A stretch of 64,000 bases of DNA from contig JAIPDI010000020.1 of NCBI GenBank assembly GCA_021737785.1, positions 1-64,000 of the forward strand, read 5' to 3'. The notes under the pieces are model-generated. The model was not told the DNA's origin. It worked only from the letters and a program-made list of their open reading frames with translations, and did not search any database. The position numbers and the translations under genes were made by a program. Of the stretch, positions 30,889-56,217 are shown one piece after another. Numbering within the stretch: position 1 is the stretch's first letter; every line of letters starts with the position of its first letter. The DNA comes from Deltaproteobacteria bacterium. Lineage in GTDB: Bacteria > Desulfobacterota > DSM-4660 > Desulfatiglandales > Desulfatiglandaceae.

Positions 30889-30964
30889 TCGGGCTGACAA
30901 CAGATGGACGACACGGGTTGAGAGAAAATTGATTAACTTCCAGACACACAAGGAGTAACCGTTT

Positions 30965-31996
30965 ATGACGACAATGACCCCGAGGGAACGTGTAAAGGCC
31001 TTTTTTAAAAGAGAACCGTTGGATCAGGCGCCCGTTTTCAGCGGTATGGGCACGGTGACGATTCAGGCAATCGACAAGATGGGGATCCGGTTTGCCCAGG
31101 TGCATGGGTCAGCGGAATATTTGGCAGGCTCGGCCATTGCCAGCGCCGAGATGTTCGGATTCGACGGGATCGTCGTTCCCTATGATATGTGTACCGTCCC
31201 CGAGGCCCTGGGAAGGGGGGCCAGTCTGTATGAAAATGCTGAGGGCATTCTTTATCCCACTGTCCCCTCCAAGTGGGCCACGCTGGACGATGTGGACCTC
31301 CCCGGCGATTACCAATCGATTTTTGATAAGGGACGCATGCCGGTGGTGGACGAGGCCATCAGGATCGCCAAGGCCCACGACGGGGGCAAGCTGGCAATCG
31401 GGGGGTGGGTGCTGGGGCCGTTCACCATGGCCGGACAGCTGATTGAGCTGGATGTCCTCCTTAAAGGGCTCCGCAAGGACAAGGATCGGGTGGAGGCCTT
31501 TTTGGCCAGGATGACCGACCTGGTGATTGCCGTGGCGCAGCATTATCAGGGATTGGGCGTGGATTACATGAACATCCGCGAGATGGGATCGGGCACGGAT
31601 CTCATCTCCCCGCGCATGTGGAAGACCCTCATCAAACCGAATCTGGAGAAGGTTTTTTCCGCCCTCGAATCTCCCAAAATCAATCACATCTGCGGCTCCA
31701 CCGACCTGATCATCGAGATGATGAACGACTGCGGTGCGGATGCCGTGAGTGTGGATCAGAAAAACAATGTGGTGGAATCGCGTCAAAAACTGGGTCCCGG
31801 CGCCATGATCCTGGGCAATTTCGATCCCTACGGGACCCTGGTCCAGATGGATGCGGCGGACGTGGCCGGGGTCATCAAGAAATGCGTGGATGACGGTGTG
31901 GATGCGGTCTGGCCGGGTTGCGATATCTGGCCCGATGTCAAGAAGGAAAACGTGGAGGCCTATGTGAAGGCCGTCCGGGAATACGGCAGGAAATAA
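30965..31996 (+). CDS. UroD-family corrinoid methyltransferase I (operon A)
   Basis: A 343-residue (beta/alpha)8 protein of the uroporphyrinogen-decarboxylase/MtaA/MtvB superfamily. Zinc-site residues are in place: H241 and C243 in NHICGSTD and C319 in WPGCDIWP. In this gene order it is best read as the substrate-side O-demethylase, taking a methyl group from a methoxylated compound and giving it to the corrinoid protein encoded next. It is much less like its operon B counterpart than the neighbouring proteins are, which suggests a different substrate. RBS AAGGAG. Confidence 0.8.
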   Translation: MTTMTPRERVKAFFKREPLDQAPVFSGMGTVTIQAIDKMGIRFAQVHGSAEYLAGSAIASAEMFGFDGIVVPYDMCTVPEALGRGASLYENAEGILYPTVPSKWATLDDVDLPGDYQSIFDKGRMPVVDEAIRIAKAHDGGKLAIGGWVLGPFTMAGQLIELDVLLKGLRKDKDRVEAFLARMTDLVIAVAQHYQGLGVDYMNIREMGSGTDLISPRMWKTLIKPNLEKVFSALESPKINHICGSTDLIIEMMNDCGADAVSVDQKNNVVESRQKLGPGAMILGNFDPYGTLVQMDAADVAGVIKKCVDDGVDAVWPGCDIWPDVKKENVEAYVKAVREYGRK

Positions 31997-32320
31997 AGCG
32001 CGAGGGAAAGGCGAGTTGAGGAAGTCAGGAATTGAGGAATTGAGGGATTCAGGGATTCAGGAATTTAGTACCTTATTTTCAATAACCCTGTAACAAAAAA
32101 CAAGAAAATCTGTTTGTATCTCAGTACGCCTTATTCTATAGACTCACACGGAGCCACAAAGAACACAGAGAAAAGGGCATGTTTCCATTTCTTTTAAAAA
32201 AAAATCCTTTGTGTGCTTTGTGTCTCTGTGTGAGTCCCGCCTGGGCGGGATTGGTTGCAGGTATCCGCTTCAGGTCACTTTTAGGTATTCAATTTTTGGC
32301 ACAGCGGAGGGAACGCGATT
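31997..32320. other. Repeat-rich gap inside operon A
   Basis: No gene is seen in these 324 bp. It contains tandem GGAATTGAGG/GGATTCAGG-like units (32027-32068), a CACAAAGAACACAGAG stretch, and the dispersed repeat at 32203-32280. The methyltransferase and corrinoid genes on either side are otherwise normally adjacent, so the gap looks like repeat expansion within the operon. Confidence 0.6.
32203..32280. repeat. Dispersed ~77-bp repeat, copy 2
   Basis: Matches 7711-7787 at about nine of ten positions by eye, in the same orientation, including a CCCGCCTGGGCGGG hairpin. It sits within an operon, 40 bp before the corrinoid-protein gene. Confidence 0.8.
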
Positions 32321-32998
32321 ATGGCAGATGAAAAAGTCAGGGAAGAACTGTTAAAGGAGCTTCACGAAGGCGTGGTGGAGTTTGATGAAGACAGGGTGCA
32401 GGAGGCCGCACAGCGGGTGCTGAATGAAGGGGTGAACGCCTACGATGCGGTGATGAACGGCCTGGCCGCGGGCATGCAGGAGGTGGGCGAGCTCTATGAT
32501 CAGCAGGAGTACTTTGTGCCTGAACTCCTCATGTGCGCCGATGCCCTGTATGTGGGGCTGGACATTCTCAAGCCCCATATCACCCTGGAAGATCTGGGAG
32601 ACAAGCCCAAGGGCCAGGTGGTGATCGGAACGGTCCAGGGGGATGTGCATGACATCGGAAAGAATATCATCAAGATGATGTTCGAGGTGGCCGGGTTTAC
32701 GGTCCACGACCTGGGCCGGGATGTGCCCCTTGAGAAATTCGTGGAGGAGCAGCTCCGCACCGACTCGGAGATCGTTGCCCTGTCGGCCATGATGACCACC
32801 ACCATGATGGGGATGGAAAAGGTCATCAAGATGATCAAGGAAAAGAATCCCAATGTGGCCATCATGCTGGGCGGTGCGCCGGTCACCAGTGATACGGCCG
32901 ACCTGTTCGGGGCCGATGGATACGCGGACAGCGCCGGGAATGCAGTGCAGGAGGCCATCAAGATGATCGGCCGGCTGAGGGAAATGCAGGCAAAGTAA
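32321..32998 (+). CDS. Corrinoid protein (operon A)
   Basis: A 225-residue B12-binding shuttle protein. Residues ~1-90 are the helical cap (methionine-synthase-type B12-binding 1) and ~95-220 the Rossmann domain with GTVQGDVHDIGKN, where His ligates cobalt (DxHxxG), and GGAPVTSDTADLFGADGYA near the end. It carries the methyl group between the UroD-type methyltransferase I and the MtrH-like methyltransferase II. Length and sequence match MtvC/OdmA and the operon B copy at 57352. Confidence 0.9.
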   Translation: MADEKVREELLKELHEGVVEFDEDRVQEAAQRVLNEGVNAYDAVMNGLAAGMQEVGELYDQQEYFVPELLMCADALYVGLDILKPHITLEDLGDKPKGQVVIGTVQGDVHDIGKNIIKMMFEVAGFTVHDLGRDVPLEKFVEEQLRTDSEIVALSAMMTTTMMGMEKVIKMIKEKNPNVAIMLGGAPVTSDTADLFGADGYADSAGNAVQEAIKMIGRLREMQAK

Positions 32999-33078
32999 AT
33001 TGAATAGTGAATAGTGATCATTGAATATTTGCTGTTGAGTTGCACGGAAATCCAACAGGGAGCCGAGGAGTCTGTTAA

Positions 33079-35157
33079 ATGGGCGAAAGCGGTAAGGTGA
33101 AGGTTATTTTCCAGCCGTCGGGGAGACGGGGAGAGGTTGACAAGGGGATCAACATTATCGAGGCGTCGCGGCGTCTCGGGGTGGATATCGAGACCCTGTG
33201 CGGTGAAAAGAGGGTCTGCGGCAAGTGCAAGGTCCGGATCGAAAAGGGGGCATTCGAAAAGTTCGGGGTGGTATCGGATCCCGGTCATGTGAGCGCATGG
33301 CAACAGGAAGAGGCGAAATTCATCACCCCTGAGCAGCGGGAATCGGGCTACCGCCTCGGGTGTGTGGCGGAGATTCAGGACGATATCCTGGTCTTTGTGC
33401 CCGAGGAATCGAGGGCCGGCAAACAGGTGGTGAGCAAGGCGGCCCGGGATATCGACATTAAATGGAATCCTGCGGTCAAACTCCATACGGTGACCATGAC
33501 GCCGCCCACCTTTGAGGATCCCCTGGGGGATTTCGAGCGGATGACCCAGGCCCTGGAAAAAGAATATGGCCTCAAAGATCTCGACATCGACTGGTTCACC
33601 CTGCAGGACCTTCCCAATGCCATCCGTAAAGGCGGATGGACCATCACCGCCGCCGTCTGGATGGACAAAGAGATCATCAAGGTGTGGCCGGGGAGGGTGG
33701 AGGACTATTACGGTCTGGCCATCGATATGGGGACCACCACGGTGGCCGCCTATTTTTGCAATATGAGGACCATGGAGGTGCTGGATACGGTCTCCATGAT
33801 GAACCCCCAGTGCAAGTACGGTGAAGACGTGATGTCGCGGATCACCTACCACATGCAGACCCCGGGCGGCCTGGAAAAAATGAGCGACGACATGATCGAG
33901 GGGCTCAACGAACTGGTGAAGAAGGCCTGCGACGCGACACACCCCCCTAAGACAAAACAGAAGGATGAAAATGGAAAAAGCATACGGGATGAAAACGGGG
34001 AATTCGTGATTGTGGAGAGTCCGGAAAAAGGGAAGCCGTATCCGCGGCTTGAGCCGTCCGACATCGTGGACCTGACCCTGGGCGGGAACACGGCCATGCA
34101 CCACATCCTCCTCAAGCTGGACCCCCAGTATGTGGGACTGGCGCCGTTTCCGCCCGTGATTCACCGGAGCCTGGATATCCGGGCCCGCGACCTCGGGATC
34201 GGAATCAACCGATCGTCCCGGGTGTTCGTCATGCCCAATGAGGCCGGATTCGTGGGGGCGGACAATGTATGTGTACTGGTGTGCGAGAAACCCCACCGGA
34301 GCGAAACCCTTCAGCTCATCATCGACATCGGCACCAACGGCGAACTGGTGTTGGGAAACAAAGACAAGCTCATATCCTCCTCCTGCGCCACAGGGCCGGC
34401 CCTGGAAGGGGCCCAGCTGGCCTTCGGGATGCGGGCCGCGCCCGGGGCCATCGAACGGATCACCATCGATCCGGAGACCCACGAGGTGGACTACAAGGTC
34501 ATCGGCCGCGAGGCGTGGCTCAAATACTCCAAGCCGGAGGAGATGCGGACCAAGGGGATCTGCGGGTCCGGGATCCTGGATGTCTTGGCCGAACTCTACC
34601 GGTCGGGCGTGGTGGAGAAGAGCGGGCGGTTCTCCAAGAATCAGAAATCCAACCGCTTCCGCACAAACCCGGACAACCCGAGACAGAAGGAGTTCGTCAT
34701 CGCCTGGGCCGATGAGACCTCCATCGACAAAGACGTGGTGATCACCCAGAAAGACATCCGTCAGATCCAGCTGGCCAAAGGGGCGCTTTACACCGGGTGC
34801 AAGCTCATGATGCGGCGGATGGGGATCGATAAGGTGGATACCATCAAGATCGCCGGGGCATTCGGCACCCACGTGGCCAGGGAAAAGGCCCTGATCATGG
34901 GTCTGTTCCCGGATTGTGAGATCGAGAAGATCCTCTCTGTGGGAAATGCGGCCGGCGACGGCGCGAGGGTGGTCCTTCTGGACCGAGACATGCGCGAGGA
35001 CGCCAACTGGATTTCCCGTCATGTGGAGTACATCGAGCTGACGGTAGAGCCCGATTTTGAAAAGCAATTCATGGAATCGATGCAGATCCCCCACATGACG
35101 GATCAGTTCCCCCATCTGGAAGGGCTGGTGCCGGAGGAGATCCTTCATCAGAAGTAG
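33079..35157 (+). CDS. Reductive activase of corrinoid proteins ([2Fe-2S] + ASKHA)
   Basis: A 692-residue protein. Residues ~1-95 are a plant-type ferredoxin with LCGEKRVCGKCKVRI plus a later LGCVA cysteine for a [2Fe-2S] cluster. From ~210 on it is an ASKHA-type ATPase (YGLAIDMGTTTVAAYF, LGGNTAMHHILL, IIDIGTNGELVLG, CGSGILDVLAELY, KIAGAFGTH). This is the RACo/AE/DUF4445 architecture that uses ATP to drive an electron onto Co(II) and restore Co(I). A short charged insert lies around residues 295-315. It serves the corrinoid protein encoded 80 bp upstream. Confidence 0.9.
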   Translation: MGESGKVKVIFQPSGRRGEVDKGINIIEASRRLGVDIETLCGEKRVCGKCKVRIEKGAFEKFGVVSDPGHVSAWQQEEAKFITPEQRESGYRLGCVAEIQDDILVFVPEESRAGKQVVSKAARDIDIKWNPAVKLHTVTMTPPTFEDPLGDFERMTQALEKEYGLKDLDIDWFTLQDLPNAIRKGGWTITAAVWMDKEIIKVWPGRVEDYYGLAIDMGTTTVAAYFCNMRTMEVLDTVSMMNPQCKYGEDVMSRITYHMQTPGGLEKMSDDMIEGLNELVKKACDATHPPKTKQKDENGKSIRDENGEFVIVESPEKGKPYPRLEPSDIVDLTLGGNTAMHHILLKLDPQYVGLAPFPPVIHRSLDIRARDLGIGINRSSRVFVMPNEAGFVGADNVCVLVCEKPHRSETLQLIIDIGTNGELVLGNKDKLISSSCATGPALEGAQLAFGMRAAPGAIERITIDPETHEVDYKVIGREAWLKYSKPEEMRTKGICGSGILDVLAELYRSGVVEKSGRFSKNQKSNRFRTNPDNPRQKEFVIAWADETSIDKDVVITQKDIRQIQLAKGALYTGCKLMMRRMGIDKVDTIKIAGAFGTHVAREKALIMGLFPDCEIEKILSVGNAAGDGARVVLLDRDMREDANWISRHVEYIELTVEPDFEKQFMESMQIPHMTDQFPHLEGLVPEEILHQK

Positions 35158-36816: not shown

Positions 36817-37168
36817 GTGTGCTCATCACTTTTAGATCAAGCCTGATTCTATCGAAACAAACCACTCTTCGGGACAGATATCGGGTGGCATTCATACTGT
36901 GCTATAACAATTTTACCATTAGGACTATTGACAGGTTGGCATTTTTATCGTTCAATATTCAACATATATTATTATATATCATGTCAAAATAAACATGATT
37001 ATGCCGGAGAAGAGATTATACAGGAGAAGTTCCGCGACAATGGGCCGGCAGAAGGTCGAGGTTGCGGGTTGCGAACCTTTTCGGGACGTGAGACTTCAGA
37101 TCATTTAAAGATCGCTCACTCTGGTATTCCATATCTTATAACCTTTGCCTGTGCAAGGAGGCGACGCT
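36817..37168 (+). promoter_or_regulatory. Upstream region of kinase-regulator pair
   Basis: About 350 bp without a gene. A candidate promoter has TTGACA at 36928-36933 and TTCAAT after 17 bp. An AT-rich patch (36955-36985) follows. The kinase gene begins at 37169 behind AAGGAGG. Confidence 0.45.
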
Positions 37169-40027
37169 ATGCAAGTGAATTTCGCTTCAGAGACGGAAGT
37201 TGTTTTAGGAAAAGCGATTGAGTCGATCTGGAAGGCTTACAGCCTGGATGAACTCCTCGAAGCTTTCTTGTCCAACTTGCTCCACGTTGATCACGTGCGA
37301 AAGGCAGAAATCTCGCTATTCAACAAACAAAGAAACCTGTTCCCCGTAGCCAGTGCTGCGAATATAGGGCCAAGGGGGAAGGTGTATCAGGAGGTCAGGG
37401 TTGAAAGCTGGGTAATGGACTCTCCTGTTCTGCATTCCACCCGAAAAGTCAATCTGCCCAACATGCACTTTGCCCTTTCAATCCCCCTTTTGCAGGGCTC
37501 AGAGCCCCTGGGTTTTTTGCATATGGAGTTTGACCGAATTCCAACTTCTGCCAGTGATAAACTCCCCGTCTTCCATCTCCTCAGCCATCATCTTTCAATT
37601 AAAATAAGAGAAATAATGTTGACTGATGAGATCAAGGAGGCCAGAAGTGAATTGCAGGATGCGAGAACCGCCAACAGGGAGATGCTGCAACAGGTCACTT
37701 CGCTCAGCAAAGAGCTGTACGCTATTACCGCAATATCCACCAAGATAAACCAGTCAATGGAATTCCACAAAACCCTCGGGAAATCCATGACCAAGATCAG
37801 CGAGGTATTCAAGGCTTCAAGTATCGCCTTCTATATGAAGAGAGCAGGTTCCTCCGAACTGAAATTGTCCGATATGGAGGTGACGGACGACGCCCTTGAC
37901 CCCAGACTCGTGAGAGGGCTCTTGAAACAGCTGGAGAAGAAGAAAGTTGTGCACGATATCGTTACCCTCGGCAGGCCATTGATAAAGGATTTGGAACTGA
38001 TATTCAAAGAGGCAAAATTCGAAAAGGTGGCAGAAGGAGGGATCAGGACGTTGATCGGTGTTCCGTTAAATTCAAAGGAAACCAACATCGGCGCGTTGCT
38101 CCTTTTACATAAGTCAGCAGAGAACTTTACCCAAAGCAGTCTCAGATTGCTGTCCGGGATGGCCAATATTATGGGCATGGCCATCGAAAATATAAACCTC
38201 TACTGCCAGACCGAGCAGAAGAAGAAGGAGGCCGCATTCCTGGTCAACTCCATTGAGAGCTTCCATCAGACGCTCGATTTGAAAAGGACCCTGAAATCAG
38301 TAGCCGAGGAAGGGGCCAGGCTCACGGGTGACCAATACCAGGTTTATTTGTTTTGCAGAACCAGAGTTTCCATAGCGCAAGTCACATGCAGGACAGCTGA
38401 GGATAAAACGACCCTCAACTCGACCTTTTTCGAACATATCCAATCGGAAGAACTCAAGAAATTATACAACTATATGATGTCAAAGAACAAAGCTGTTTTG
38501 ATCAGGAGTATCAATCATGCAAGGAAGATGGGAAAAGAGATGAGGGACTATCTTCAAGAGAGAGGCATCCATTCCTTGATAAGCGTACCCCTTACGTTAA
38601 AGGAAGAAACCCTGGGGTTACTTCTCCTGGGAAAGGAGAAATGTGAAAAATCGCTTGATCACAGCGATCTCTCTGTTGCTGAGGCCTTGGGGAGTGCGGC
38701 CACGGTTGCCATTCAGAACGCTCGAGCTTACACATCCAGTCTCGAGATGAGCGACTTTCTTGAAAGAAAGATCGCAGAAAAGACCAGTCAGATTGAACAG
38801 ATACAAGAAACGCAGAGAATTCGAGTGGAACATCGGAAGGATATTATTTTCCGGGTCAACCGAAAAAACCGGTTTGTCTTTGTCAACAAGGCGATGGAAA
38901 AAATGACCGGAATCTCCAGGGAAGCGTTTTGTCGTGGCGATGTTTTGGCCGACGAAGTAGTTGTTGAGAAGGACCGTCCTCAGATACGAGAAGCCTTTGT
39001 GAAAGTCCTTAACAGTGAACTGGCAATGGTCAAGGATCTTGAGTATCGGCAACTCGCGATAGGGGGCGAAGACCGCATCATCTCCCTGACCATTTACCCG
39101 GAAAGGGATGCTGCCCACCGCATTATCGGGATTGAGGGGGTAGGGAGGGACATTACTCAAGAGAAAAAGCTGGCCGAAGAGCTAAAAAAAACGAGAGAAT
39201 TAGCCCTGTTAGGTGAATTTTCTGCTGACATCGCTCACCAGATTAGAAACCCCCTGAGTAATATTCTCATGGGGAAAAAGCGGTTGGAAAGGGCCTTAAA
39301 ACTGGACGTCCGCACTCAGGAGGCAGAGCAAGAACCTTGCAAAGAACCTGTTGCGTTCACATCTGGCCAAGAGAATTTGGCGGAGATCTTCGGAGATTTC
39401 TCAGAAGGAATCAGTAATCTAAATCAAATTGTCACCGAATTGCTGCAATATACCAAAACCCTGAAACTCACACGATCCTTTCAGCGAATCGATATTATCC
39501 TGGGGGAAGTCCTCAAGATGTTTGAGGACGTGATCAGGAAAAATAGGATAACGGTAAAAGAAGAGTATGACCCTGAGCTTCCACCACTTCAGATGGATGC
39601 CCTATTGATGGGGCAGGTATTTCAGAATGTGATTCACAATGCCATAGGAGCAATGCCGGGTGGGGGATGGCTTTTGACGCGAATTGGTTTTTGTTATGAA
39701 AGGCCCGGGTGCGCATTTATCTCGATCAGCGATTCTGGCGTCGGTATCAAGCCTTCTGAAATAGAAAATATCTTTCGCCCGTTTTATTCAACAAAGCCCT
39801 GCGGTGCCGGGCTGGGTTTGTCTCTGGCCTATCGCATTGTGGAGGCCCATAACGGCATCATACGGGTATGTCACAATCCATGCCCCAATCTTGCCCACAG
39901 GGCTTCTTCCGGGAATAGGGCAAATCGCAATCATCACGCAAGGGGAACTACCATACACATCCTCCTGCCTTTGGATACGACATCCGATGGAAAAACAGCA
40001 GAACCGGTTGGAGGTGATTTAGAATGA
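37169..40027 (+). CDS. Sensor histidine kinase with GAF and PAS domains
   Basis: A 952-residue cytoplasmic kinase without transmembrane helices. It carries about three GAF-type regions (roughly 10-150, 190-350, 365-535), a coiled coil, a PAS domain (~555-670, FRVNRKNRFVFVNKAMEKMTGI), a HisKA domain with phospho-acceptor in IAHQIRNPLSNI, and a HATPase domain (HNAIGAMPGG, DSGVGI, GAGLGLSLAYRIVEAHNG). An insert follows the last G box before the final strands. It overlaps the NtrC-type regulator by 4 bp, so they form a two-component pair, likely sensing a soluble or corrinoid-linked signal. Confidence 0.88.
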   Translation: MQVNFASETEVVLGKAIESIWKAYSLDELLEAFLSNLLHVDHVRKAEISLFNKQRNLFPVASAANIGPRGKVYQEVRVESWVMDSPVLHSTRKVNLPNMHFALSIPLLQGSEPLGFLHMEFDRIPTSASDKLPVFHLLSHHLSIKIREIMLTDEIKEARSELQDARTANREMLQQVTSLSKELYAITAISTKINQSMEFHKTLGKSMTKISEVFKASSIAFYMKRAGSSELKLSDMEVTDDALDPRLVRGLLKQLEKKKVVHDIVTLGRPLIKDLELIFKEAKFEKVAEGGIRTLIGVPLNSKETNIGALLLLHKSAENFTQSSLRLLSGMANIMGMAIENINLYCQTEQKKKEAAFLVNSIESFHQTLDLKRTLKSVAEEGARLTGDQYQVYLFCRTRVSIAQVTCRTAEDKTTLNSTFFEHIQSEELKKLYNYMMSKNKAVLIRSINHARKMGKEMRDYLQERGIHSLISVPLTLKEETLGLLLLGKEKCEKSLDHSDLSVAEALGSAATVAIQNARAYTSSLEMSDFLERKIAEKTSQIEQIQETQRIRVEHRKDIIFRVNRKNRFVFVNKAMEKMTGISREAFCRGDVLADEVVVEKDRPQIREAFVKVLNSELAMVKDLEYRQLAIGGEDRIISLTIYPERDAAHRIIGIEGVGRDITQEKKLAEELKKTRELALLGEFSADIAHQIRNPLSNILMGKKRLERALKLDVRTQEAEQEPCKEPVAFTSGQENLAEIFGDFSEGISNLNQIVTELLQYTKTLKLTRSFQRIDIILGEVLKMFEDVIRKNRITVKEEYDPELPPLQMDALLMGQVFQNVIHNAIGAMPGGGWLLTRIGFCYERPGCAFISISDSGVGIKPSEIENIFRPFYSTKPCGAGLGLSLAYRIVEAHNGIIRVCHNPCPNLAHRASSGNRANRNHHARGTTIHILLPLDTTSDGKTAEPVGGDLE

Positions 40028-41445
40028 AACATCAAATACTTGTGGTTGATGACCAGATGTCGATTTGCCACCACATTCGCGCGATATTGGAAAACGAGGG
40101 GTATGGGGTAGGCATTGCCCACAGCGGTGATCATGCCTTAAGCACGTTGTCCTCTCAGTCCTACGACCTGTTATTGGCCGACATGAAGATGCCGGGGATG
40201 GATGGGCTGGAACTGTTTGAACAGGCCCGCAAGATGGACCCGAACATCTCAGGTATTATTGTAACAGCGTATGGCTCCATCTCCTCGGCGGTCCACTGTA
40301 TCAAGCATGGAATAAGCGACTATCTGGTGAAGCCTTTTGAGCCGGAATCTTTGCTCATGGTTGTGGAAAAGGTCTTTAAAGAAAGAGAGATGATGCGGGA
40401 GATCGAAGATTTGAGAAAAGAGGTAACTCAAAAATACGCCTTCGGAAACATCATCGGCAAGAATCACAAGATGCAGGCTGTTTATAACCTGATCAAGAAG
40501 GTCTCCCCTACCGATGCCCGGGTTTTTATCTACGGCGAAACAGGCGTTGGCAAGGAGCTGGTGGCAAAGGCGATACATTTTAACAGTCTCAGAAAAAACA
40601 GGCCCTTTATCAGCATAAACTGCGGGGCATTGGCGGAGAGCCTGCTGGAGACCGAGCTGTTCGGGCATGAAAAGGGGGCCTTTACCGGTGCAATCCGTAA
40701 GAAGATGGGCAAATTCGAATACGCTCGAGGAGGAACCCTTTTTTTGGATGAGATCGGGGATATTTCGTCCAAGATGCAGGTAAAGCTGCTCAGGGTGCTT
40801 CAAGAAAAAATGCTGGAAAGGGTCGGGGGCAACGAGTCCATTGATGTGGATGTGAGGCTGCTTTCAGCCACTAATCAGGATATCGAGGAAAAGGTCGAAT
40901 GTGGCAAATTCCGGGTGGAACTCTTTTATCGGCTCAACGTAGTTCCGATTCATATCCCCCCCTTGAGAGAACGGATCGAGGATATTCCGCTTCTGGTAAA
41001 ACACTTTATGGAAATTTTTAACAAGAATATGAATAAAAATATCAAGCACTTTTCCATAAAAGCCATGCAACAATTGATGCAACATCACTGGCCGGGAAAT
41101 GTTCGAGAACTGGAAAACGTCCTGGAAAGGGCCTTTGTTACGACAGATGCTGATACCATTGAGAGCGTCATTTTTTCTCTCGACAGCCGTAACATGCCAT
41201 TTGGAGAAACCCCGTATAATGTAGATGTTGACATCCCTTATTTTTCAGCGCGATCCATCGTGCTCAGCCGATTCGAAAAGGCTTACCTTTTCGAAGCATT
41301 GAAGCGCTCTCAGGGAAATGTATCAAAAGCGGCTAAAGCAGTCGGGATGAACCAGCGTACTCTGTGGCGCAAGATCAACGCTTATGGATTTGATTGTGCG
41401 CGATTTAGGTCAGGATCTGACCCGCAGTCTTCTGTCACATCGTGA
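40024..41445 (+). CDS. NtrC-type sigma-54 response regulator
   Basis: A 473-residue activator with a receiver (ILVVDDQ, phosphorylation site LLADMKMPGMDG, conserved K in LVKPFEPE), a AAA+ sigma-54 domain (GETGVGKELVAKAIH, ELFGHEKGAFTGA, GGTLFLDEIGD) and a Fis-type helix-turn-helix (GNVSKAAKAVGMNQRTLWRKI). All functional motifs are intact. It is co-transcribed with the GAF/PAS kinase. Its target is not proven; the methanol locus directly downstream, with a weak sigma-54-like site at 42210, is the nearest candidate. Confidence 0.9.
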   Translation: MKHQILVVDDQMSICHHIRAILENEGYGVGIAHSGDHALSTLSSQSYDLLLADMKMPGMDGLELFEQARKMDPNISGIIVTAYGSISSAVHCIKHGISDYLVKPFEPESLLMVVEKVFKEREMMREIEDLRKEVTQKYAFGNIIGKNHKMQAVYNLIKKVSPTDARVFIYGETGVGKELVAKAIHFNSLRKNRPFISINCGALAESLLETELFGHEKGAFTGAIRKKMGKFEYARGGTLFLDEIGDISSKMQVKLLRVLQEKMLERVGGNESIDVDVRLLSATNQDIEEKVECGKFRVELFYRLNVVPIHIPPLRERIEDIPLLVKHFMEIFNKNMNKNIKHFSIKAMQQLMQHHWPGNVRELENVLERAFVTTDADTIESVIFSLDSRNMPFGETPYNVDVDIPYFSARSIVLSRFEKAYLFEALKRSQGNVSKAAKAVGMNQRTLWRKINAYGFDCARFRSGSDPQSSVTS

Positions 41446-41729
41446 CATTGCTGTCACTATAGTAACTTATTAAAATAATAGTGAATTTAAGAGCAAGGCC
41501 CTTTTTTCTGTTTTTTTGGGGCATTGATGACACAATATTCCTCCTGCAAATTGCCGGAATGCGCTGACTCAAAAGCTTTTTTCCACCTGCTTTTTCCTCT
41601 TGAATTCGGGTTCCCACGGTTGCCGATATTTTTGGCATTCAAATTGCAGCCTGTAAAGAAGAAAACAATCAAAAATTATACCTAAGCGTTATTTCTGAAG
41701 ATAAGTACGCAAGCCCTAAACCGGGAAGG
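41446..41729. other. Gene-free region before the riboswitch
   Basis: No credible gene here. TGTCAC/GTGACA units (41436-41460) lie at the end of the regulator gene and a poly-T run is near 41508. The promoter for the riboswitch transcript must lie in this stretch, but no consensus boxes stand out. Confidence 0.45.
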
Positions 41730-41975
41730 ATAAAGGAATCTGCGTGTCTTCCCAGGTAGGGAAGATGGTGAAAAGCCATCGCTGCCCCGCAACTGTAAGC
41801 AGCAATCCCTTTCCTCCCTTCATATCGAGCGACATGGAAAGGGTTTTTGGGGTCTTCATTTTCCAAAAAGCGAAATCTGTACCAGGCCACTGTTCCACTG
41901 TAAAGGGTAAGCGGAATGGGAAGGCGCAGAGAGTAGATAAAGCTGCAAGCCAGGATACCTGCCCAACTGAGGATA
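41730..41975 (+). promoter_or_regulatory. Cobalamin riboswitch
   Basis: The region contains the class's conserved cores in order: GGGAAGATGGTGAAAAGCC, the B12-box strand GCTGCCCCGCAACTGTAAGC, GGCCACTG, GGGAAGGC and GCCAGGATACCTGCC. Cobalamin riboswitches normally repress B12-related genes when adenosyl- or methylcobalamin is bound. Here it lies about 295 bp before mtaA, the first gene of a corrinoid-dependent methanol pathway, which is a logical but less common target. It may act through a terminator or anti-terminator in the following ~290 bp, which I could not identify. Confidence 0.92.
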
Positions 41976-42209
41976 TGGGTTTTTCGAGGGCAAAGACCAT
42001 ATCCGCCTGCAAGATCTAAATTCTCACATTTACCGCTATAACTTTGAATGCCATCTCAATGTCGTTATGTAACGGAGCTATACTCCCCGTACATAATTGC
42101 AGAAGACGATGCATGTCGTGCTCCCATTTTGCATATGCAGTAGACGATACAGGCGCGAGGACCTCCGGGGTGTTCCAAATTAGTTGCCAATGACGCCGCT
42201 CTTTTCAGA

Positions 42210-42226
42210 GAGGTTCCGTATATGCA
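42210..42226 (+). promoter_or_regulatory. Weak sigma-54-like promoter before mtaA
   Basis: GAGG at 42210-42213 and TGCAA at 42223-42227 give the GG-N10-GC spacing of a -24/-12 promoter, but the GGCAC part of the -24 box is missing (GGTTCC). It sits 43 bp before the mtaA start. It would bypass the riboswitch if real. Confidence 0.3.
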
Positions 42227-42268
42227 ATAGCATCTCAAACCATATCTTTTACCAAAGGAGGAGTTCTA

Positions 42269-43282
42269 ATGAATGGTAAAGAGCGAGTGATGGCTGTCTT
42301 GAATCATCAAAAGCCAGACAGAATGCCCTGTTTTGGGGCAAATTCCACCGTAACCTACGATCAGATGGAAAAGGTGCAGGCCTTTTGGCCTGAAGGCCAC
42401 CAAAAGGGAGAGGTCATGGCAAAACAGGCACTGGCGGCATATACCGTGCTCGGTTTTGATGCGGTGAGGGTGCCATTCTGCCAGACATTCGAGGCGGTCG
42501 CCCTGGGATGCAAATACAAACCGGGAAAGAGTGTCGCAGGTGGCGAGGGCATCCCGGGAATTGAACATCCGCCCCCCTACAAATTGGATGATACCCCCAT
42601 ATATCCTGATGATTTTCTTACCAGGGGCTCGATACCGGAACTGATAAAGGCAGTCAAAATTCTCAAAAAAGAGGTGGGTGGTGAGGTACTCGTTGTGGCG
42701 GGGATCATCGGGCCCTTTACCATTGCGGGATCTCTTCTGGATGCGGTTCCCATCCTCAAGGCCACATTTAAGGCCCCTGACAAGATCCGGCCTTTTCTTG
42801 AGGTCGCAGAGAAGGCCGGCACCACCCTTGCGAAGGCGCTCATAGACGCGGGCGCCGACATCATCTCCTGTGAAGACATGACCGCATCGCCCGAACTCAT
42901 TGCCCCAAAGACGTACAGAGATCTTGAATTGGAATATCAAAAAAGACAATTCGACGCCATCCACGTCCCCAAGATTTTGCACATTTGCGGCAACGTGGAC
43001 GGCATTGTGGAATGGATGGGTCAGACCGGGGCAGACATACTGAGCCTGGAGCCCAAGGCCAGTGCCCGGCTTGCCCGGGAAAAATGCGGCCCGGACATTA
43101 TTTTGATGGGGGGTGTGGATACCGCTACCACCCTTTTCATGAAAGATGCGGACACCGTGAGGCGGGGCTGCGAGGAGTCTATTGCCGACGGGATCCAGAT
43201 CCTGGCCCCGGGCTGTGCGGTTGCGCCTGGCACCCCCACCGAAAACCTCCTGGCCATGGTGGAGGTGGCCAAGGCCCATTAG
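42269..43282 (+). CDS. mtaA: MtaA-type methyltransferase (methylcorrinoid acceptor)
   Basis: A 337-residue UroD-fold methyltransferase of the MtaA/CmuA family. The zinc ligands are clear: H238 and C240 in KILHICGNVDG and C316 in LAPGCAVAPGTPTENLL, positions very close to those of methanogen MtaA. In archaea MtaA methylates coenzyme M; in bacteria with mta genes the acceptor is thought to be tetrahydrofolate. AAAGGAGG precedes the ATG. The next gene is mtaC, and mtaB lies 4.4 kb downstream, giving a full methanol:corrinoid:acceptor set. Confidence 0.87.
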   Translation: MNGKERVMAVLNHQKPDRMPCFGANSTVTYDQMEKVQAFWPEGHQKGEVMAKQALAAYTVLGFDAVRVPFCQTFEAVALGCKYKPGKSVAGGEGIPGIEHPPPYKLDDTPIYPDDFLTRGSIPELIKAVKILKKEVGGEVLVVAGIIGPFTIAGSLLDAVPILKATFKAPDKIRPFLEVAEKAGTTLAKALIDAGADIISCEDMTASPELIAPKTYRDLELEYQKRQFDAIHVPKILHICGNVDGIVEWMGQTGADILSLEPKASARLAREKCGPDIILMGGVDTATTLFMKDADTVRRGCEESIADGIQILAPGCAVAPGTPTENLLAMVEVAKAH

Positions 43283-43358: not shown

Positions 43359-44105
43359 ATGAGATATTTAGATGATTTTTCTAATATTTTCAAGCGCTAC
43401 GATCTCGACCTTGAGGTCCATGGAGAAGCAAGGGAAGTTTCGAAAGATGCCACCTTGCAGGCGATCGCCAAATTCGTTGTGGAGGGGAACGATGAGGGGA
43501 TCCTGGCGGCCGTCCAGAAGGCCCTGGAGACAAAATCGCCTCTCGACGTTATCAACGATGCCTTGATCGCAGGTATGAACGAGGTGAGCCGTCTGTGGGA
43601 TGAAGGGATCTATTTCCTTCCTCAGGTCATCCTCTCGGCAGACGCGATGAGTATTGGAATTGCCGAGTGTGAGAAAAAAATGGGTAAGGCCATGGAGAGG
43701 AAGTCCACTGTAGTCACCCATACGGCCGAGGGAGATATCCACGACATCGGACAGGTTATTGCCAACGCCCTGCTCAATGCCAATGGCTATAATGTTGTGA
43801 ACCTCGGCGCTGATGTCCCGGTTGAAAAAGTGGTTGCCGCGTGCAAGGAACACAGGCCTGTGATGGTCACCGGCACCGCCCTGATGACCACCACCATGAC
43901 GGCATTTCCCAAGATCGCCCATCAGCTCCAGTCTGTCGGCCTGAATATCCCCTTTATCTGCGGCGGGGGAGCGGTCTGCGAGGAATACGTTACCAGTTAC
44001 CCCCTGGGCATCTGGGGCAAAGAGTGCAGCCAGGCGCCGGGAATGGCCGAGGACGCCACAGAGGGCGAGAGTTGGGAAGCCATGCGCGCTAAATGGAACG
44101 GGTAG
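43359..44105 (+). CDS. mtaC: Methanol corrinoid protein MtaC
   Basis: A 248-residue corrinoid protein of the MtaC type rather than the shorter MtvC type in operons A and B. It has the helical cap (DALIAGMNEVSRLWDEGIYF) and the B12 domain with H128 in EGDIHDIGQ as cobalt ligand, then VTGTALMTTTMTAFPKIAHQ and FICGGGAVCEEYV, which match methanogen MtaC closely. It would be methylated by MtaB with methanol and demethylated by MtaA. Start at ATG 43359 behind AAGGAGG; a longer frame upstream overlaps mtaA and is not used. Confidence 0.9.
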   Translation: MRYLDDFSNIFKRYDLDLEVHGEAREVSKDATLQAIAKFVVEGNDEGILAAVQKALETKSPLDVINDALIAGMNEVSRLWDEGIYFLPQVILSADAMSIGIAECEKKMGKAMERKSTVVTHTAEGDIHDIGQVIANALLNANGYNVVNLGADVPVEKVVAACKEHRPVMVTGTALMTTTMTAFPKIAHQLQSVGLNIPFICGGGAVCEEYVTSYPLGIWGKECSQAPGMAEDATEGESWEAMRAKWNG

Positions 44106-44129: not shown

Positions 44130-45170
44130 ATGATCGTTGATATCGTCTTTGGGTTTTTGGGCTCCGGCAAGACCACTTTTATCACCAAGGCACTCGAGAA
44201 GTGGGGCGCAGAGGAAAAAATTGTTGTTCTGGTCAATGAATTTGGAGAGGTGGGCATAGACGGTGAGCTGCTGACAGGCAAAGGCGGCGATGTGGTGGAG
44301 ATGCCCAGCGGGTGTATATGCTGCACGCTTCAGGAGGATTTCAGGGCACAAATGCTTGAAATCAGCGAGACCATCAAACCTGACAGGGTCATCGTAGAGC
44401 CCACCGGTGTGGCTACGATCGCGCAAGTCCGGTTCATCGTGGAGGCTGAACTCTTCGAGAATATCATTGATAAGATCAATAATATCCTGATCGCTGATGC
44501 CACCGGTTTTATGGGCCTGTATAAGGCCAACCGTCACTTTGTGGAATCGCAGGTCAGAAACGCCCAGCTCGCCCTTCTGAACAAGTGCGACAGGGTCGAT
44601 AAGAGGAAGGCCATGGTTACCCAGGGGGCCTTATCGGCGATCAATCCCGAAATGACAGTCTTGATGACCGAATTCGGGGCAGTGGATTGGGCCGAGTATC
44701 AGTTTGCCCTGTCGACCGCCCCAAGTTTCCAAAAATGGGTGTCGAAAGCGGACGATAGCCACATAACAGGTGAGGGGGGCGAAAGGTCTATCCATCACCA
44801 TGAAGCACATCCCCACAAAGAGGGTGAGCTGCATGTCCATTTCAATGAAGAGGAGGATGAACTGGGGTATGAGTCCTTTGGTTGTGTCTACCGCGATCAA
44901 TCCTTTGATCAAGGGGCGCTGGAAGGGCTTTTCCAACAACTCAAGGCCTCCAACTCGGGGATGGGAGATATTGTCAGGGCCAAAGGGATATTCAGGGTTT
45001 CTGATGGGTGGATGTTGATGGAAGTGGCATCCGGTGAGTTCTCATCCCAGCCGCTCAGACAATCCGCTGGAACCAAGGTTTCCATCATCGGCAAGGGCCT
45101 GGACCGGGAATTGATCGGATCTGCTCTTGAGAGTTGTATGTCGGTAGAAGACGTGATCAAGACCCCATAA
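44130..45170 (+). CDS. CobW/COG0523-family GTPase
   Basis: A 346-residue G3E GTPase with P-loop GFLGSGKTTFI, the metal site SGCICCTLQEDF, and NKCD for guanine recognition. A His-rich stretch (SIHHHEAHPHKEGELHVHF, ~220-240) should bind metal. The C-terminal CobW_C domain follows. It is encoded 24 bp after mtaC. Relatives deliver Zn or Co; MtaB and MtaA both need Zn and MtaC needs a cobalt corrinoid, so metal loading of this pathway is the most likely job, by inference. Confidence 0.87.
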   Translation: MIVDIVFGFLGSGKTTFITKALEKWGAEEKIVVLVNEFGEVGIDGELLTGKGGDVVEMPSGCICCTLQEDFRAQMLEISETIKPDRVIVEPTGVATIAQVRFIVEAELFENIIDKINNILIADATGFMGLYKANRHFVESQVRNAQLALLNKCDRVDKRKAMVTQGALSAINPEMTVLMTEFGAVDWAEYQFALSTAPSFQKWVSKADDSHITGEGGERSIHHHEAHPHKEGELHVHFNEEEDELGYESFGCVYRDQSFDQGALEGLFQQLKASNSGMGDIVRAKGIFRVSDGWMLMEVASGEFSSQPLRQSAGTKVSIIGKGLDRELIGSALESCMSVEDVIKTP

Positions 45171-45322: not shown

Positions 45323-45853
45323 ATGGTAGAATCCACACTTATGGCCATCAGTCTCATGTGGTTGCCCGTGGGATTGTTGCTTTTGGGTATAGGAGAAGCC
45401 AAGGGAACGGGCGCCCTTGTCATCATGGTGGGCGCCCTTGTGCTGGTATCTGCGGTCATTCAGGCGGCCGTGTTTAGAGACCCTTGGATTGCCGCCCTCC
45501 TTTTTGCATATGGGCTGTTTTATGCCATCGTCGGTTATTCATTATTCGCAGGGCTGGAGAACCTGAAGGCAGCGGGCAACGCCAGTTTCACCCTGATTCC
45601 GATCTCCATCGTATATGTGATACTCGCCCTTACAGGGGGACCGGTCCTGGAAGGCGGCAAGCAGTTGATCGGCAAGAGCAATTTCCTGGCCCTGGCCTGC
45701 GCCGGTTACACGGTGCTTTATGTTATGGTCTGGCTCAATGCATACGGCAAATTCTCTGCAAAGACCTTGGGCGTGTCACTTATCATATGGACCGTCGTGG
45801 GTCTTTGGCTTCCCTCCTTTTGGCTTCTGGCCACGGGTACGTTGCCGTTTTAG
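45323..45853 (+). CDS. Six-helix membrane protein, possibly AmiS/UreI-type channel
   Basis: A 176-residue, very hydrophobic protein with about six transmembrane helices and almost no soluble loops (MWLPVGLLLLGIGEAKGTG, then DPWIAALLFAYGLFYAIVGYSL). Size and layout resemble AmiS/UreI channels for urea and short-chain amides, but the signature is not conclusive; another small-solute channel family is possible. AAAGGAGG precedes the ATG. Its place between the CobW gene and the sigma-54 activator of the methanol locus suggests that it passes a small uncharged solute such as methanol, which is only a hypothesis. Confidence 0.6.
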   Translation: MVESTLMAISLMWLPVGLLLLGIGEAKGTGALVIMVGALVLVSAVIQAAVFRDPWIAALLFAYGLFYAIVGYSLFAGLENLKAAGNASFTLIPISIVYVILALTGGPVLEGGKQLIGKSNFLALACAGYTVLYVMVWLNAYGKFSAKTLGVSLIIWTVVGLWLPSFWLLATGTLPF

Positions 45854-46001: not shown

Positions 46002-47390
46002 ATGACACAAGACACGGACAGAAACAAGCCGATCATACTTATCGTTGACGACCAGTACAGGACCTTCCGCCCCTTACTCCGCCTCATATCACAGGACCTG
46101 TTTTCGCCCATCTGGGCGCCGGATGCAAAGGACGGGTTGAAAATTCTGACAAATCACTCCGGTGGCGTGCAAGTCATCATCATTGATCTGAAATCTTCCG
46201 GTATGGGAGGCGGGGGATTTCTGCACCAGGCCAGGCAGATTGCCCCTCATGCGGCCATCCTGATCACTGCCCCGCTAGGGCCGTTTTTGTATCAACATGG
46301 GGCCTTTTATGATTTTTCAGGACCCAGTCTGAAAGCGGATATCAATGCTGTTCTGTCGAGCATTGTGGAGAAAATGGGCGCAGGAAACGGGGCCTCTGCA
46401 AGCAAAGGTTCGCCGCACGAATGGAAAGAGCGCTTTGGCGTCATCATCGGTCGAAGCAAAGGAATCAACGAAATCTATCAGCTCATCGAAAAGCTGAGGA
46501 GTTCTTCTGCCACGGTGATGATCCAGGGGGAGAGCGGCACGGGAAAGGAACTGGTGGCCCAAACGATCCACCAGACCAGCTCCAGAAACGATCGTCCCTT
46601 TGTGGCCATTAACTGCGGGGCCATCCCCGAAAATTTGATGGAGAGCGAACTGTTCGGGCATGAGCGAGGGGCCTTTACCACGGCCGTTCAGCAGAGGAAG
46701 GGGAAATTTGAGGCAGCCCACGGCGGCACTCTTTTCCTGGACGAAATCGGTGAACTGGACAGGGACCTGCAGGTCAAGCTTTTAAGGGTCCTGCAGGAGA
46801 AGGAATTCCAACGGGTGGGTGGGAACAGGTCATACGAGACGGATGTGCGTATTATCGCCGCCACCAGTAAGGATCTGAGAAGCGCTGTTGAGGCCGGGCA
46901 TTTCCGGGATGATCTTTTCTACCGCCTCAATGTGGTCCCTATTCATATCCCGCCCTTAAGGGAGAGGCGGGAGGATATCCCCTTGTTGCTGGATCATTTT
47001 TTCCACAAGATCTCCCGAGAAATGGACCGGTCCGTCCCCCTGATCACCGAAGGGGCGCTAAGCCTTTTGCTGGATTACTCCTACCATGGCAATGTCCGGG
47101 AACTGACCAATATCGTGGAACGGCTTCTCGTTACCTGCCCCAATGGAAAAATTACGCACCAGGATCTCCCTGACGAGGTGCGTGGGGAAGCGGAATTGGG
47201 ACAAGGCCCTGCCGAAAGGTTGAAAAATCTGCAGGAGCCCGGAGTCTCTTTGCAGGAAATAGAAAAGGAACTCATTCTGAAAACCCTTAAGATGACCTCC
47301 TGGAACAAGGCGGCCACCGCCAGAATGTTAGGGATTACCCGGCGGCTTCTTTATCTTCGGCTATCGCAGTACGGCCTCTCTCCCCCATGA
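46002..47390 (+). CDS. Sigma-54 activator with degenerate receiver
   Basis: A 462-residue enhancer-binding protein. The N-terminal ~115 residues look like a receiver (IILIVDDQY, IIIDLKSSGMGGGG) but the conserved lysine region reads DFSGPSLK, so phosphorylation is doubtful. The AAA+ domain has GESGTGKELVAQTIH and GGTLFLDEIGEL, while the sigma-54 contact loop is GAFTTA, not GAFTGA. A Fis-type DNA-binding end (WNKAATARMLGITRRLLYLRL) is present. It lies directly upstream of a consensus sigma-54 promoter and mtaB and is the obvious activator of that gene. Confidence 0.87.
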   Translation: MTQDTDRNKPIILIVDDQYRTFRPLLRLISQDLFSPIWAPDAKDGLKILTNHSGGVQVIIIDLKSSGMGGGGFLHQARQIAPHAAILITAPLGPFLYQHGAFYDFSGPSLKADINAVLSSIVEKMGAGNGASASKGSPHEWKERFGVIIGRSKGINEIYQLIEKLRSSSATVMIQGESGTGKELVAQTIHQTSSRNDRPFVAINCGAIPENLMESELFGHERGAFTTAVQQRKGKFEAAHGGTLFLDEIGELDRDLQVKLLRVLQEKEFQRVGGNRSYETDVRIIAATSKDLRSAVEAGHFRDDLFYRLNVVPIHIPPLRERREDIPLLLDHFFHKISREMDRSVPLITEGALSLLLDYSYHGNVRELTNIVERLLVTCPNGKITHQDLPDEVRGEAELGQGPAERLKNLQEPGVSLQEIEKELILKTLKMTSWNKAATARMLGITRRLLYLRLSQYGLSPP

Positions 47391-47440: not shown

Positions 47441-47529
47441 AGGGCGGCGTCGCATGCATGAATGCGCTGGGTTGAAGGAAAATAAAGCAAGCAAAATCAA
47501 ATTGTTATACGATTCAACGATAACTGCTT

Positions 47530-47545
47530 TGGCACATCAATTGCA
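47530..47545 (+). promoter_or_regulatory. Sigma-54 promoter of mtaB
   Basis: TGGCACATCAATTGCA gives a perfect -24 element (TGGCAC), exact GG-N10-GC spacing and a TTGCA -12 element. Transcription would begin near 47556, about 127 bp ahead of the mtaB ATG. Confidence 0.85.
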
Positions 47546-47682: not shown

Positions 47683-49062
47683 ATGGCACGAAAAGCGATA
47701 ACAAAAATGGCGTATGCCAGCGGTGCGGAAATGATGTTCGGCACTGCCAAAACTCCGGTGACCACCAAGAGGGGGATCGAGGTTGGGGGAGGGTATGTCC
47801 ATCCCCATATCGTCCCACACCCCAGGCCGGGCAGTGAAAAGACCATGAAGACCCTGTTGAGGGAATATGAAAAGGCCAATGGGGACGCCCTGGAGAGAAT
47901 GACCATTGTGGGTCACCCCACCCTTTATCTGGAAAATGAGCATATCTTCCAGATGACCCACAATCCCAAATGGGGCGGGGAGATCGCTGCCCAGACCGCC
48001 AAGCAGATGGACGACTATCTGGAGAAATATGGGCTCAAGGCCGCTTATCAATCCACACCGGCCGATCTGCGCAAACCCGACATGCATCATATGCGGACCA
48101 GCGACTACACCATGGAGATCCTTGAGAGCTTTAAAGAGGTCTCCAAATACGCGGATACCTGTTGCATCGAATCCATGGGGGGCAAGGAGATCTTCGACCA
48201 TGCCATTATCCGTAATGACATCACCGGTATCCTTTTTGGGATTGGTGTCTTGGGTTCGATCGATATGGAGTGGATGTGGGACCAGATCGTGGAGATCTGC
48301 AAGAAGAACAAGTGTATTCCCGGCGGAGACACCAACTGTTCCGAGGCCAACACCGCCATGTTCATGGCCGGCGGTATGACCTCCAAGGACGTGCCCCATG
48401 TCATGGCCGCCTTAGCCAGGGCCATCTGTGCCGGCAGGAGCATGGTAGCCGTTGAATGCGGGGCCACCGGACCGACCAAGGATTGCGCCTATGAGAATCC
48501 CATTGTCAAGGCCATGACCGGGGTTCCGGTCGCCACCGAGGGAAAGGCCAGCGCCTGCGGCCATTCCGATCTTGCCAGCAATCTCATTATGGCGGTGTGT
48601 GACCTGTGGAGCAACGAGGCCGTGGAATACCACGACATGTTCGGCGCCACCACCACGTCGGTCTTTGCGGAGATCCTGGGCTATGACTGCGCCATACTCA
48701 ACACGGCCCTTGAATTGGGTTACCAGGAACAGATGAAGGAAATCCTGGTCAACTCCGACATGTACAGGGATTCGCACAGCCTGATCCTGGCCCCGGACAA
48801 TGCGTGGGAGATAGGCAACGCCATTGTCAGCAACAGGTCCAAGGGTTACTATGAAAGTGCAAGGGCTGCGGCCATCAAGGCGGGCGAGATTATTCTGGGT
48901 GATCCCAAGATGAAGCTGACCGCCCTTGAGAAGAATGCCCTTGACAAGGCCATGAAGGACTTGGAGGGCCTGCCGGATACCCAGGCAAACTTTATTGATA
49001 TGTGCCTGGATAGATACAAAGGCGTCAACGGCTTTAACCCGGATTCCTATGGGCTAAAATAA
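47683..49062 (+). CDS. mtaB: Methanol:corrinoid methyltransferase MtaB
   Basis: A 459-residue protein matching methanogen MtaB from end to end: TKMAYASGAEMMFGTAKTPV at the start, ENEHIFQMTHNPKWG, and a long conserved middle. The zinc ligands known from Methanosarcina barkeri (Glu164, Cys220, Cys269) correspond to E163 (CIESMGGKE), C219 (GGDTNCSEANT) and C268 (GPTKDCAYEN). It activates methanol and methylates the Co(I) corrinoid of MtaC. It has its own sigma-54 promoter and terminator, so it can be expressed more strongly than mtaAC. RBS AAGGGGG. Confidence 0.93.
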   Translation: MARKAITKMAYASGAEMMFGTAKTPVTTKRGIEVGGGYVHPHIVPHPRPGSEKTMKTLLREYEKANGDALERMTIVGHPTLYLENEHIFQMTHNPKWGGEIAAQTAKQMDDYLEKYGLKAAYQSTPADLRKPDMHHMRTSDYTMEILESFKEVSKYADTCCIESMGGKEIFDHAIIRNDITGILFGIGVLGSIDMEWMWDQIVEICKKNKCIPGGDTNCSEANTAMFMAGGMTSKDVPHVMAALARAICAGRSMVAVECGATGPTKDCAYENPIVKAMTGVPVATEGKASACGHSDLASNLIMAVCDLWSNEAVEYHDMFGATTTSVFAEILGYDCAILNTALELGYQEQMKEILVNSDMYRDSHSLILAPDNAWEIGNAIVSNRSKGYYESARAAAIKAGEIILGDPKMKLTALEKNALDKAMKDLEGLPDTQANFIDMCLDRYKGVNGFNPDSYGLK

Positions 49063-49130: not shown

Positions 49131-49163
49131 GATAGAGAGCACCGTATACTGAAAGGAGGGGTG

Positions 49164-49442
49164 ATGGCAATAACTTATCCAAAAATTGGCAACCAGGTGG
49201 TGGCAAAGATCATTGAAACAAAGGGTGACTGCACCATCGGCATGAAGGTGGGAGATGAATTTGATTTGGATATCCACAAGTGTGGTAACTTTTGCGGGTA
49301 TTTCTATCATAATATCTTTAATTGGGTAAGTACCCTCCAGCTTGGTGGGACGTTCCCGCTCGGTGAAGATCCCGACATTCAGTACTGGGACTGCCCAAAC
49401 CCCAATAATAGGGTAAAGATTGAACTGAAACGAGTAAAATGA
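49164..49442 (+). CDS. TIGR04076-like small protein
   Basis: A 92-residue protein with CTIGMKVGDEFDLD, KCGNFCGYFYHNIFNWVSTLQ and WDCPNPNNRVKIELKRVK, the look of the TIGR04076 family found near redox and methyltransferase genes. Three or four conserved cysteines suggest metal or cluster contact, but no function is known to me. AAAGGAGG precedes the ATG. It follows mtaB and precedes the RamA-type activase gene. Confidence 0.65.
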   Translation: MAITYPKIGNQVVAKIIETKGDCTIGMKVGDEFDLDIHKCGNFCGYFYHNIFNWVSTLQLGGTFPLGEDPDIQYWDCPNPNNRVKIELKRVK

Positions 49443-55266: not shown

Positions 55267-56217
55267 ATGTTTCATTTTGAGAGGGAACAAAAGGTGTGTC
55301 AGGTAGGGGGGGTGAAGTTTGGAGGACAGCCGGGAAGCTATCCCACCGTGGTGTGTTCATCCATCTTTCAAAAGGGAGACAAGGTCTTCGAGGGAAAGAG
55401 AAAGGAGGGTTTCGATGAAAAGAGGGGAGAGGAACTTCTGAAAACTCAGGACCGATTGTGGAGCGAGACAGGAGTCCCTGGAATGGCGGATGTGGTCGCC
55501 AACAGCGAAGAGGAATTCAAGCGGTACATTGACTTCATCACCTCTGTCAGCGACATGCCTTTTTGCGTGGATGCCTGGAAGCTGAAACCCAAGCTGGCCG
55601 GGGCCGCCTACTGCGCGGAAAAGGGGCTCCTGGACCGGATGTTTTACAACAGCCTGACCGTATGGGAAGAGGAACTGGAGACAGAGGTCAGAGAGATCCA
55701 TGGGATGGGCGTCAAGCATGTCCTCCTGGTGGCATTTGATATGGAAGACCAGCTGCCCAAGGGGCGGATCACCGGGACCCAGAAGCTCCTTGATGCCATG
55801 GAAAAAGTGGGCGCCACCTTCGACAGCATCTTTGTGGACACCTCTGTGATGAACGGCCCGGCGGTGGCCTTTTGTGGCCTTGCCAACCGGATGATCAAGG
55901 AGAAATGGGGCTTTCCCACGGGGAGCGCCCCCTCCAATGGGTCGTATATGTGGAAAAAGGCAAAAGAGCTGTGGGGATTCAAAGGCTGGGCTGCCGTAGA
56001 TGCGGGCCTGGAATCGCTGGCGGCCTTTCTGTACCATGACATGATCTTCTCCGGTCCTATGGCCGGGGCTTCCAGGGTATTCCCGGCCATTGCCATGGCC
56101 GATGCCTTTACGGCCGCTGCGGCCTTTGCCGAGACAAAAAGGCTGCCAGAGGACCAGAACCATCCGCTCTTCAAGCTGTTCCCGGAATTTGTGGATCAGC
56201 TCAGGACGGTGGGATAA
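55267..56217 (+). CDS. MtrH-like methyltransferase II (operon B)
   Basis: A 316-residue protein, same length as the operon A copy and alike throughout (VKFGGQPGSYPTVVCSSIFQ, DKVFEGKRKEGFDEKRGEELL, TSVMNGPA.AFCG.ANRMIKE). It should transfer methyl groups from the corrinoid protein encoded at 57352 to tetrahydrofolate. The start follows a weak GGAGGGAGG. The high conservation against operon A suggests either recent duplication or strong selection on the common methyl-acceptor step. Confidence 0.85.
   Translation: MFHFEREQKVCQVGGVKFGGQPGSYPTVVCSSIFQKGDKVFEGKRKEGFDEKRGEELLKTQDRLWSETGVPGMADVVANSEEEFKRYIDFITSVSDMPFCVDAWKLKPKLAGAAYCAEKGLLDRMFYNSLTVWEEELETEVREIHGMGVKHVLLVAFDMEDQLPKGRITGTQKLLDAMEKVGATFDSIFVDTSVMNGPAVAFCGLANRMIKEKWGFPTGSAPSNGSYMWKKAKELWGFKGWAAVDAGLESLAAFLYHDMIFSGPMAGASRVFPAIAMADAFTAAAAFAETKRLPEDQNHPLFKLFPEFVDQLRTVG

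Follow-up and report, generated by a model that had tools for sequence, protein, structure and literature searches.

The cobalamin riboswitches known so far serve mainly in feedback control of B12 supply or of substitutes that are free of B12. A survey that covered 197 genomes and 535 cobalamin riboswitch sites could sort the targets into just four categories (B12 synthesis, B12 transport, cobalt transport and isozymes of B12-dependent enzymes), and no class had a B12-dependent enzyme as its target (PMC3766115). An initial annotation of the 64,000-nucleotide stretch analyzed here (the window) had placed a complete cobalamin riboswitch core about 295 bp before mtaA and had called a B12-dependent methyltransferase target unusual, a view borne out by its position outside those four categories. 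That annotation offered two directions of control, an ON switch or repression under corrinoid excess, and did not include the sigma-54 promoter, the P13–L13 platform, the location of mtaB off the riboswitch transcript or the conservation of the arrangement described below. The locus raises the question of whether the element is a genuine riboswitch, whether it belongs to the mRNA of the methanol-utilization (mta) genes and in which direction it would act.

The riboswitch and its transcript

The Rfam Cobalamin family (RF00174) matches positions 41706–41980 (+) with 56.9 bits (E 1.8e-11) over model positions 1–189 of 189. It is the sole Rfam family above its gathering threshold, 31.5 bits for RF00174, in the whole 64 kb. 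The earlier claim of a complete core thus withstands the check by the Rfam model, and its distance is right as well, with 294 nt from where the core stops (about 41975) to the mtaA ATG. Supported by covariation among eight sequences, the conserved aptamer core covers 41753–41964 (+). In the mta set, it is closed by a short covarying helix, GGUAGG/CCUGCC, formed by 41755–41760 with 41958–41963; P4 pairs 41764–41768 with 41776–41780, L5 reads GCCCCG (41784–41789), and the core also holds P6 and the B12 box AAGCCAGGATACCTGCC. Across the closing helix, P4 and P6 of the aligned core, 93% of cells are paired and 7 of 16 pairs have changed on both sides, in an alignment whose eight sequences include three close relatives (the window, L012 and L013). 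None of 500 shuffles reaches these pairing and compensatory values, and sliding the partners by 1–3 columns as a control lowers the pairing to 24–47%. At one position of the closing helix, four kinds of pair occur (UA, UG, AU and CG). P1 and P2, which make up the 5′ portion matched by Rfam, are weakly supported, with the P2 region aligning badly and the short covarying closing helix in their place. Because the same element recurs in seven other loci, with covariation and an invariant L13, it is under selection in the mta context. Judged from its sequence, the mta-leader element is a genuine cobalamin riboswitch, predicted to bind corrinoid.

The gene order downstream of the riboswitch is mtaA, mtaC, a cobW-like gene, an AmiS/UreI-like gene, the regulator gene RR2, mtaB and then a RamA-like corrinoid reductive activase. 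The mtaA-type methylcobamide methyltransferase of URO-D fold (42269–43282, +; PF01208; NF004889 at 296 bits versus a cut-off of 244) is preceded by the Shine–Dalgarno sequence AAAGGAGGAG. It is followed by an mtaC-type corrinoid protein (43359–44105, +; PF02607 and PF02310; best NCBIfam match MtaC at 264 bits, below its cut-off), a CobW/COG0523 G3E GTPase (44130–45170, +; PF02492 and PF07683) and a small AmiS/UreI-like membrane protein (45323–45853, +; PF02293 at 21.6 bits, below the cut-off of 25). This last protein is kept in many mta clusters and is possibly a channel for methanol or small solutes. RR2, assigned from its translation as a sigma-54-dependent regulator (46002–47390, +), is probably the last gene of the riboswitch transcript. 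The methanol:corrinoid methyltransferase mtaB (47683–49062, +; PF12176 at 655 bits) lies outside that transcript. MtaA, MtaC and MtaB all score below the strict NCBIfam cut-offs set for methanogen equivalogs, so MtaB is the main ground for the "methanol" assignment, and either coenzyme M or tetrahydrofolate may be the methyl acceptor. On the 5′ side of the riboswitch lie a sigma-54-dependent response regulator, RR1 (40024–41445, +; PF00158, PF00072 and PF02954), and, preceding it, a sensor kinase recognized by its kinase domains (37145–40027).

We scanned both strands of the 64 kb for the −24/−12 consensus of sigma-54 promoters, using our own weighting of the consensus as the score. The second-best site in the window, TTGGCATTCAAATTGCA (41632–41648, +; 23 of 26.5), lies 5′ of the aptamer with a predicted transcript start at about 41658, and none of 200 shuffles of the RR1–mtaA gap reaches its score. 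In six of the relatives that carry the riboswitch (L011, L012, L013, L017, L023 and L028), at most 2 of 200 gap shuffles do so, and L019 fails; a sigma-54 site thus precedes the aptamer core in seven of eight riboswitch loci, with none standing out downstream. Between the aptamer and mtaA, no sigma-70-like site was found on the + strand of the window or in the leaders scanned. Given the upstream promoter in seven of the eight loci and no promoter found from aptamer to mtaA, the aptamer very probably belongs to the mta mRNA. The initial annotation had named a transcript start past 41975 as grounds for rejecting its proposal; the sole good predicted promoter instead lies 5′ of the aptamer. A search for GACA-N4-TGTC palindromes found the inverted repeat GTGACA-TTGC-TGTCAC at 41442–41457, a likely enhancer site for the sigma-54 response regulator. 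Such palindromes occur about 180–235 bp 5′ of the sigma-54 site in the window, L012, L028, L022 and L024, a position that would fit the expectation for an activator site, and were not found in the remaining loci searched. The best sigma-54 site in the window, TTGGCACATCAATTGCA (47529–47545, +; 24.5 of 26.5), is the predicted promoter of mtaB itself; it stands apart from the riboswitch transcript, and a similar site lies 5′ of mtaB in relatives.

Distribution among relatives and within the genome

Loci were gathered with MtaB as bait, 24 from named genomes and others from further relatives, and most are metagenome-assembled genomes. RF00174 matches between RR1 and mtaA in seven of them, all from sulfate-reducer-like Desulfobacterota (L011, L012, L013, L017, L019, L023 and L028), which together with the window make at least eight distinct loci. 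At the gathering threshold, no match was found in L015, L020–L022, L024, L025, L032, L035, L029 or L030, and L037, L039 and L015 gave none even with E allowed up to 1. This riboswitch-less set includes contiguous mtaA–mtaC–mtaB loci (L020, L021, L022, L024 and L032), Desulfospira (L015) and two archaeal loci scanned. RR2 is found between the cobW/AmiS genes and mtaB in all eight riboswitch loci, versus none of the five riboswitch-less contiguous ones. On a tree of MtaA plus MtaC, the riboswitch label fits a single change, at a branch support of just 48/58. In L020, L022 and L032, the RR1–mtaA gap runs on for 1.1–1.3 kb past the sigma-54 site and apparently contains an additional reading frame, which the loci with the riboswitch lack.

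We looked for the signature CAGGATACCTNCY-N6-36-CGAGGG in two sets of genomes from the phylum and order, 395 and 85 in number; the exact form misses some true members (L013, L017 and L019) and so provides no full census. It matched five times outside mta loci (L041–L044 and L047), and on inspection these chance-looking matches, mostly within coding sequence, were unlike riboswitches. From its sequence distribution, the riboswitch subfamily appears tied to mta operons in the sampled genomes.

The whole genome holds four RF00174 riboswitches, that of the mta leader included, the best of which scores 110 bits versus 56.9 for the mta element. The three others precede B12 uptake and synthesis genes that are cobT- and btuB-like (Pfam Phosphoribosyltransferase, TonB receptor, CobS and BtuR). 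Their L5 differs from that of the mta element, being of the CCCGCCGCUGU type in two and a further variant in the third. Terminator-like hairpins lie downstream of all three, and the terminator scan that finds none at the mta locus detects sites in their regions, although in L004 the detected site falls inside the aptamer match and the downstream hairpin was read by eye.

The P13–L13 hairpin and the search for a read-out

The riboswitch element reaches past the 3′ end of the Rfam model to a P13 hairpin (41971–42004, +). The CGAGGG of its loop is kept in all eight loci, and the stem folds in all of them even though its sequence varies between diverged loci. In the window, L13 reads CGAGGGC (41985–41991) and could kiss L5 through six pairs with one bulged A; the pairing potential in some other loci has fewer pairs or includes G–U. 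Bulged L5–L13 kissing loops are known in other members of the class (PMC10653944). Folded alone, P13 reaches about −12 to −20 kcal/mol (54-nt folds), a stability that makes its dependence on ligand less certain and counts against the activating mechanism proposed below.

The leader continues for 264 nt from P13 to mtaA (42005–42268, +), with no promoter or conserved small ORF found in it; the spacing differs widely between loci. No intrinsic terminator (a hairpin followed by a U-run) was found past the aptamer on the + strand of 41400–42400. P13 is therefore not mutually exclusive with a terminator as in the cobT riboswitch of Alkalihalobacillus halodurans, and activation by another route is possible. 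Nor did we find a translational platform, in the sense of a ribosome site or start codon within or beside P13, the mtaA start lying at the far end of the leader, or a conserved upstream ORF by P13.

Several other read-outs were considered and set aside. As for a competitor of P13, its 3′ strand pairs with the downstream leader no better than shuffles do, and its 5′ strand finds scattered matches. Removal of the P13 5′ strand leaves the accessibility of the mtaA ribosome site without notable change, which argues against occlusion of that site. Rho-site-like C-rich stretches are inconsistent. Following the L13 GAGGG, a start codon (GTG) is present in L012 and L013 only and is not common to the set. 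A leader peptide finds no better footing, as the 67-codon ORF of L012 and L013 lacks a third-position bias and is absent from the window. That ORF (L012:4388–4591 and L013:642–845) has a good ribosome site and overlaps the mtaA start (TAATG). With no terminator, no start codon by P13 and no conserved P13 competitor, the direction of control is unreadable from sequence.

These features place the element beside known systems without a close match. With RF00174, it shares the aptamer core, the B12 box, the L5–L13 kissing-loop anatomy and the position in an mRNA leader; it differs in its corrinoid-dependent catabolic target, its sigma-54 promoter, a short closing helix without clear P2 and the lack of a recognized terminator or ribosome-site platform. 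The A. halodurans cobT riboswitch, the only known activating member, has a P13-stabilizing L5–L13 kissing loop like the one predicted here, but its P13 is in competition with an intrinsic terminator and it controls a B12-synthesis gene (PMC10653944). The metE and ppe2 B12 riboswitches of Mycobacterium tuberculosis likewise do without intrinsic terminators in leaders that run on to the gene, but they switch translation off and have upstream ORFs that are translated (PMC11260477), of which no conserved counterpart is seen here. The class of aptamer is not new. What looks unreported in the open-access literature searched is its deployment, with a terminator-less platform, on a catabolic operon that depends on B12.

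Direction of control

Our preferred reading, held with about even confidence, is that a methanol-utilization mRNA has a cis-acting corrinoid riboswitch in its leader, most likely an activating one; activation is favored because the mta product needs the cofactor. In this scheme, the two-component system (37145–41445) would drive transcription from the sigma-54 promoter at 41632, and the transcript, from near 41658, would carry the aptamer, P13–L13, mtaA, mtaC, cobW, the AmiS-like gene and the second sigma-54 regulator. On binding corrinoid, L5 would kiss L13 and lock P13, as the conserved anatomy suggests. MtaA and MtaC would then be made only with methanol and corrinoid both present, MtaB may follow under the same condition through RR2, and fresh apo-MtaC would lower free corrinoid again. 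The sequences themselves show the riboswitch with its conservation and covariation, the promoter 5′ of it and the platform hairpin; ligand binding, the sign of control, the P13 read-out and the control of mtaB via RR2 are steps that we infer. The fuller version, that a Desulfobacterota subfamily activates the mta operon through a terminator-less P13–L13 platform without ribosome-site occlusion, as an AND gate with the sigma-54 methanol sensor, we hold tentatively, a little short of an even chance.

Catabolic pathways that depend on B12 and are turned on with it via a cobalamin riboswitch are represented by Enterococcus eut and Listeria pocR, whose circuits employ a small RNA or an antisense RNA. 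The mta riboswitch differs in being part, in cis, of the leader of the structural operon itself. Desulfotomaculum kuznetsovii has Mta proteins in abundance only when cobalt and B12 are present, with no riboswitch reported there (PMC5770442); by analogy from a different organism, and whatever the mechanism there, this shows that cofactor-conditional Mta expression is sensible. An activating corrinoid riboswitch with a stabilized P13 does exist (PMC10653944). It was the one activator known in 2023 among characterized corrinoid riboswitches, all others of which repress (PMC10653944), and repression as the rule of the class counts against activation here, as do the absence in the window of a terminator for P13 to prevent, the shuffle-level pairing of the P13 3′ strand with the leader and the inconsistency of Rho-site-like stretches.

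The same cis riboswitch could instead be an OFF switch, with excess corrinoid lowering mtaA–mtaC–cobW expression through P13 and a noncanonical route, such as Rho-dependent termination or mRNA decay; we regard this as a serious rival, though somewhat less likely. Repression is usual for the class (PMC10653944; PMC3766115), cobW genes of another COG0523 subgroup sit under B12 riboswitches (PMC2770081), T-rich sequence follows P13 in L019, L023 and L028, and CobW and MtaC perhaps act in corrinoid handling under limitation. Yet neither a terminator nor a sequestered start codon is found in the window or common to the set, in contrast to the three other riboswitches of the genome, and a cofactor that represses its own corrinoid-dependent enzyme is hard to rationalize. 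The aptamer might also be real and transcribed but of small effect, if most mtaA expression came from a different promoter or from processing of the transcript. The long and variable P13–mtaA spacing speaks for this, but the window shows no prominent sigma-54 or sigma-70-like site from the aptamer to mtaA, and the helices and L13 are kept over diverged loci, which makes it improbable. That the element is a chance match or the decayed relic of a B12-gene riboswitch, as its modest score beside the genome's best and its badly fitting P1/P2 might suggest, is scarcely credible against the E value, the seven homologous loci and the compensatory changes unmatched in 500 shuffles.

A conserved riboswitch on a B12-consuming enzyme system offers a direct test of whether a catabolic pathway is gated on cofactor supply, and the same locus a test for natural activating corrinoid riboswitches beyond A. 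halodurans cobT. Such gating may help account for the strong cobalt dependence of anaerobic methanol use.

A 93-aa TIGR04076 family protein (49161–49442) lies between mtaB and the ramA-like activase, as also in L012. Two more corrinoid methyltransferase gene sets flank the mta cluster (29938–35157 and 55267–60154), neither of them preceded by a cobalamin match to Rfam. Each comprises a conserved 316-aa protein, an MtaA-like and an MtaC-like protein and a RACo-like activase, and the RACo proteins of the two sets are 71% identical.
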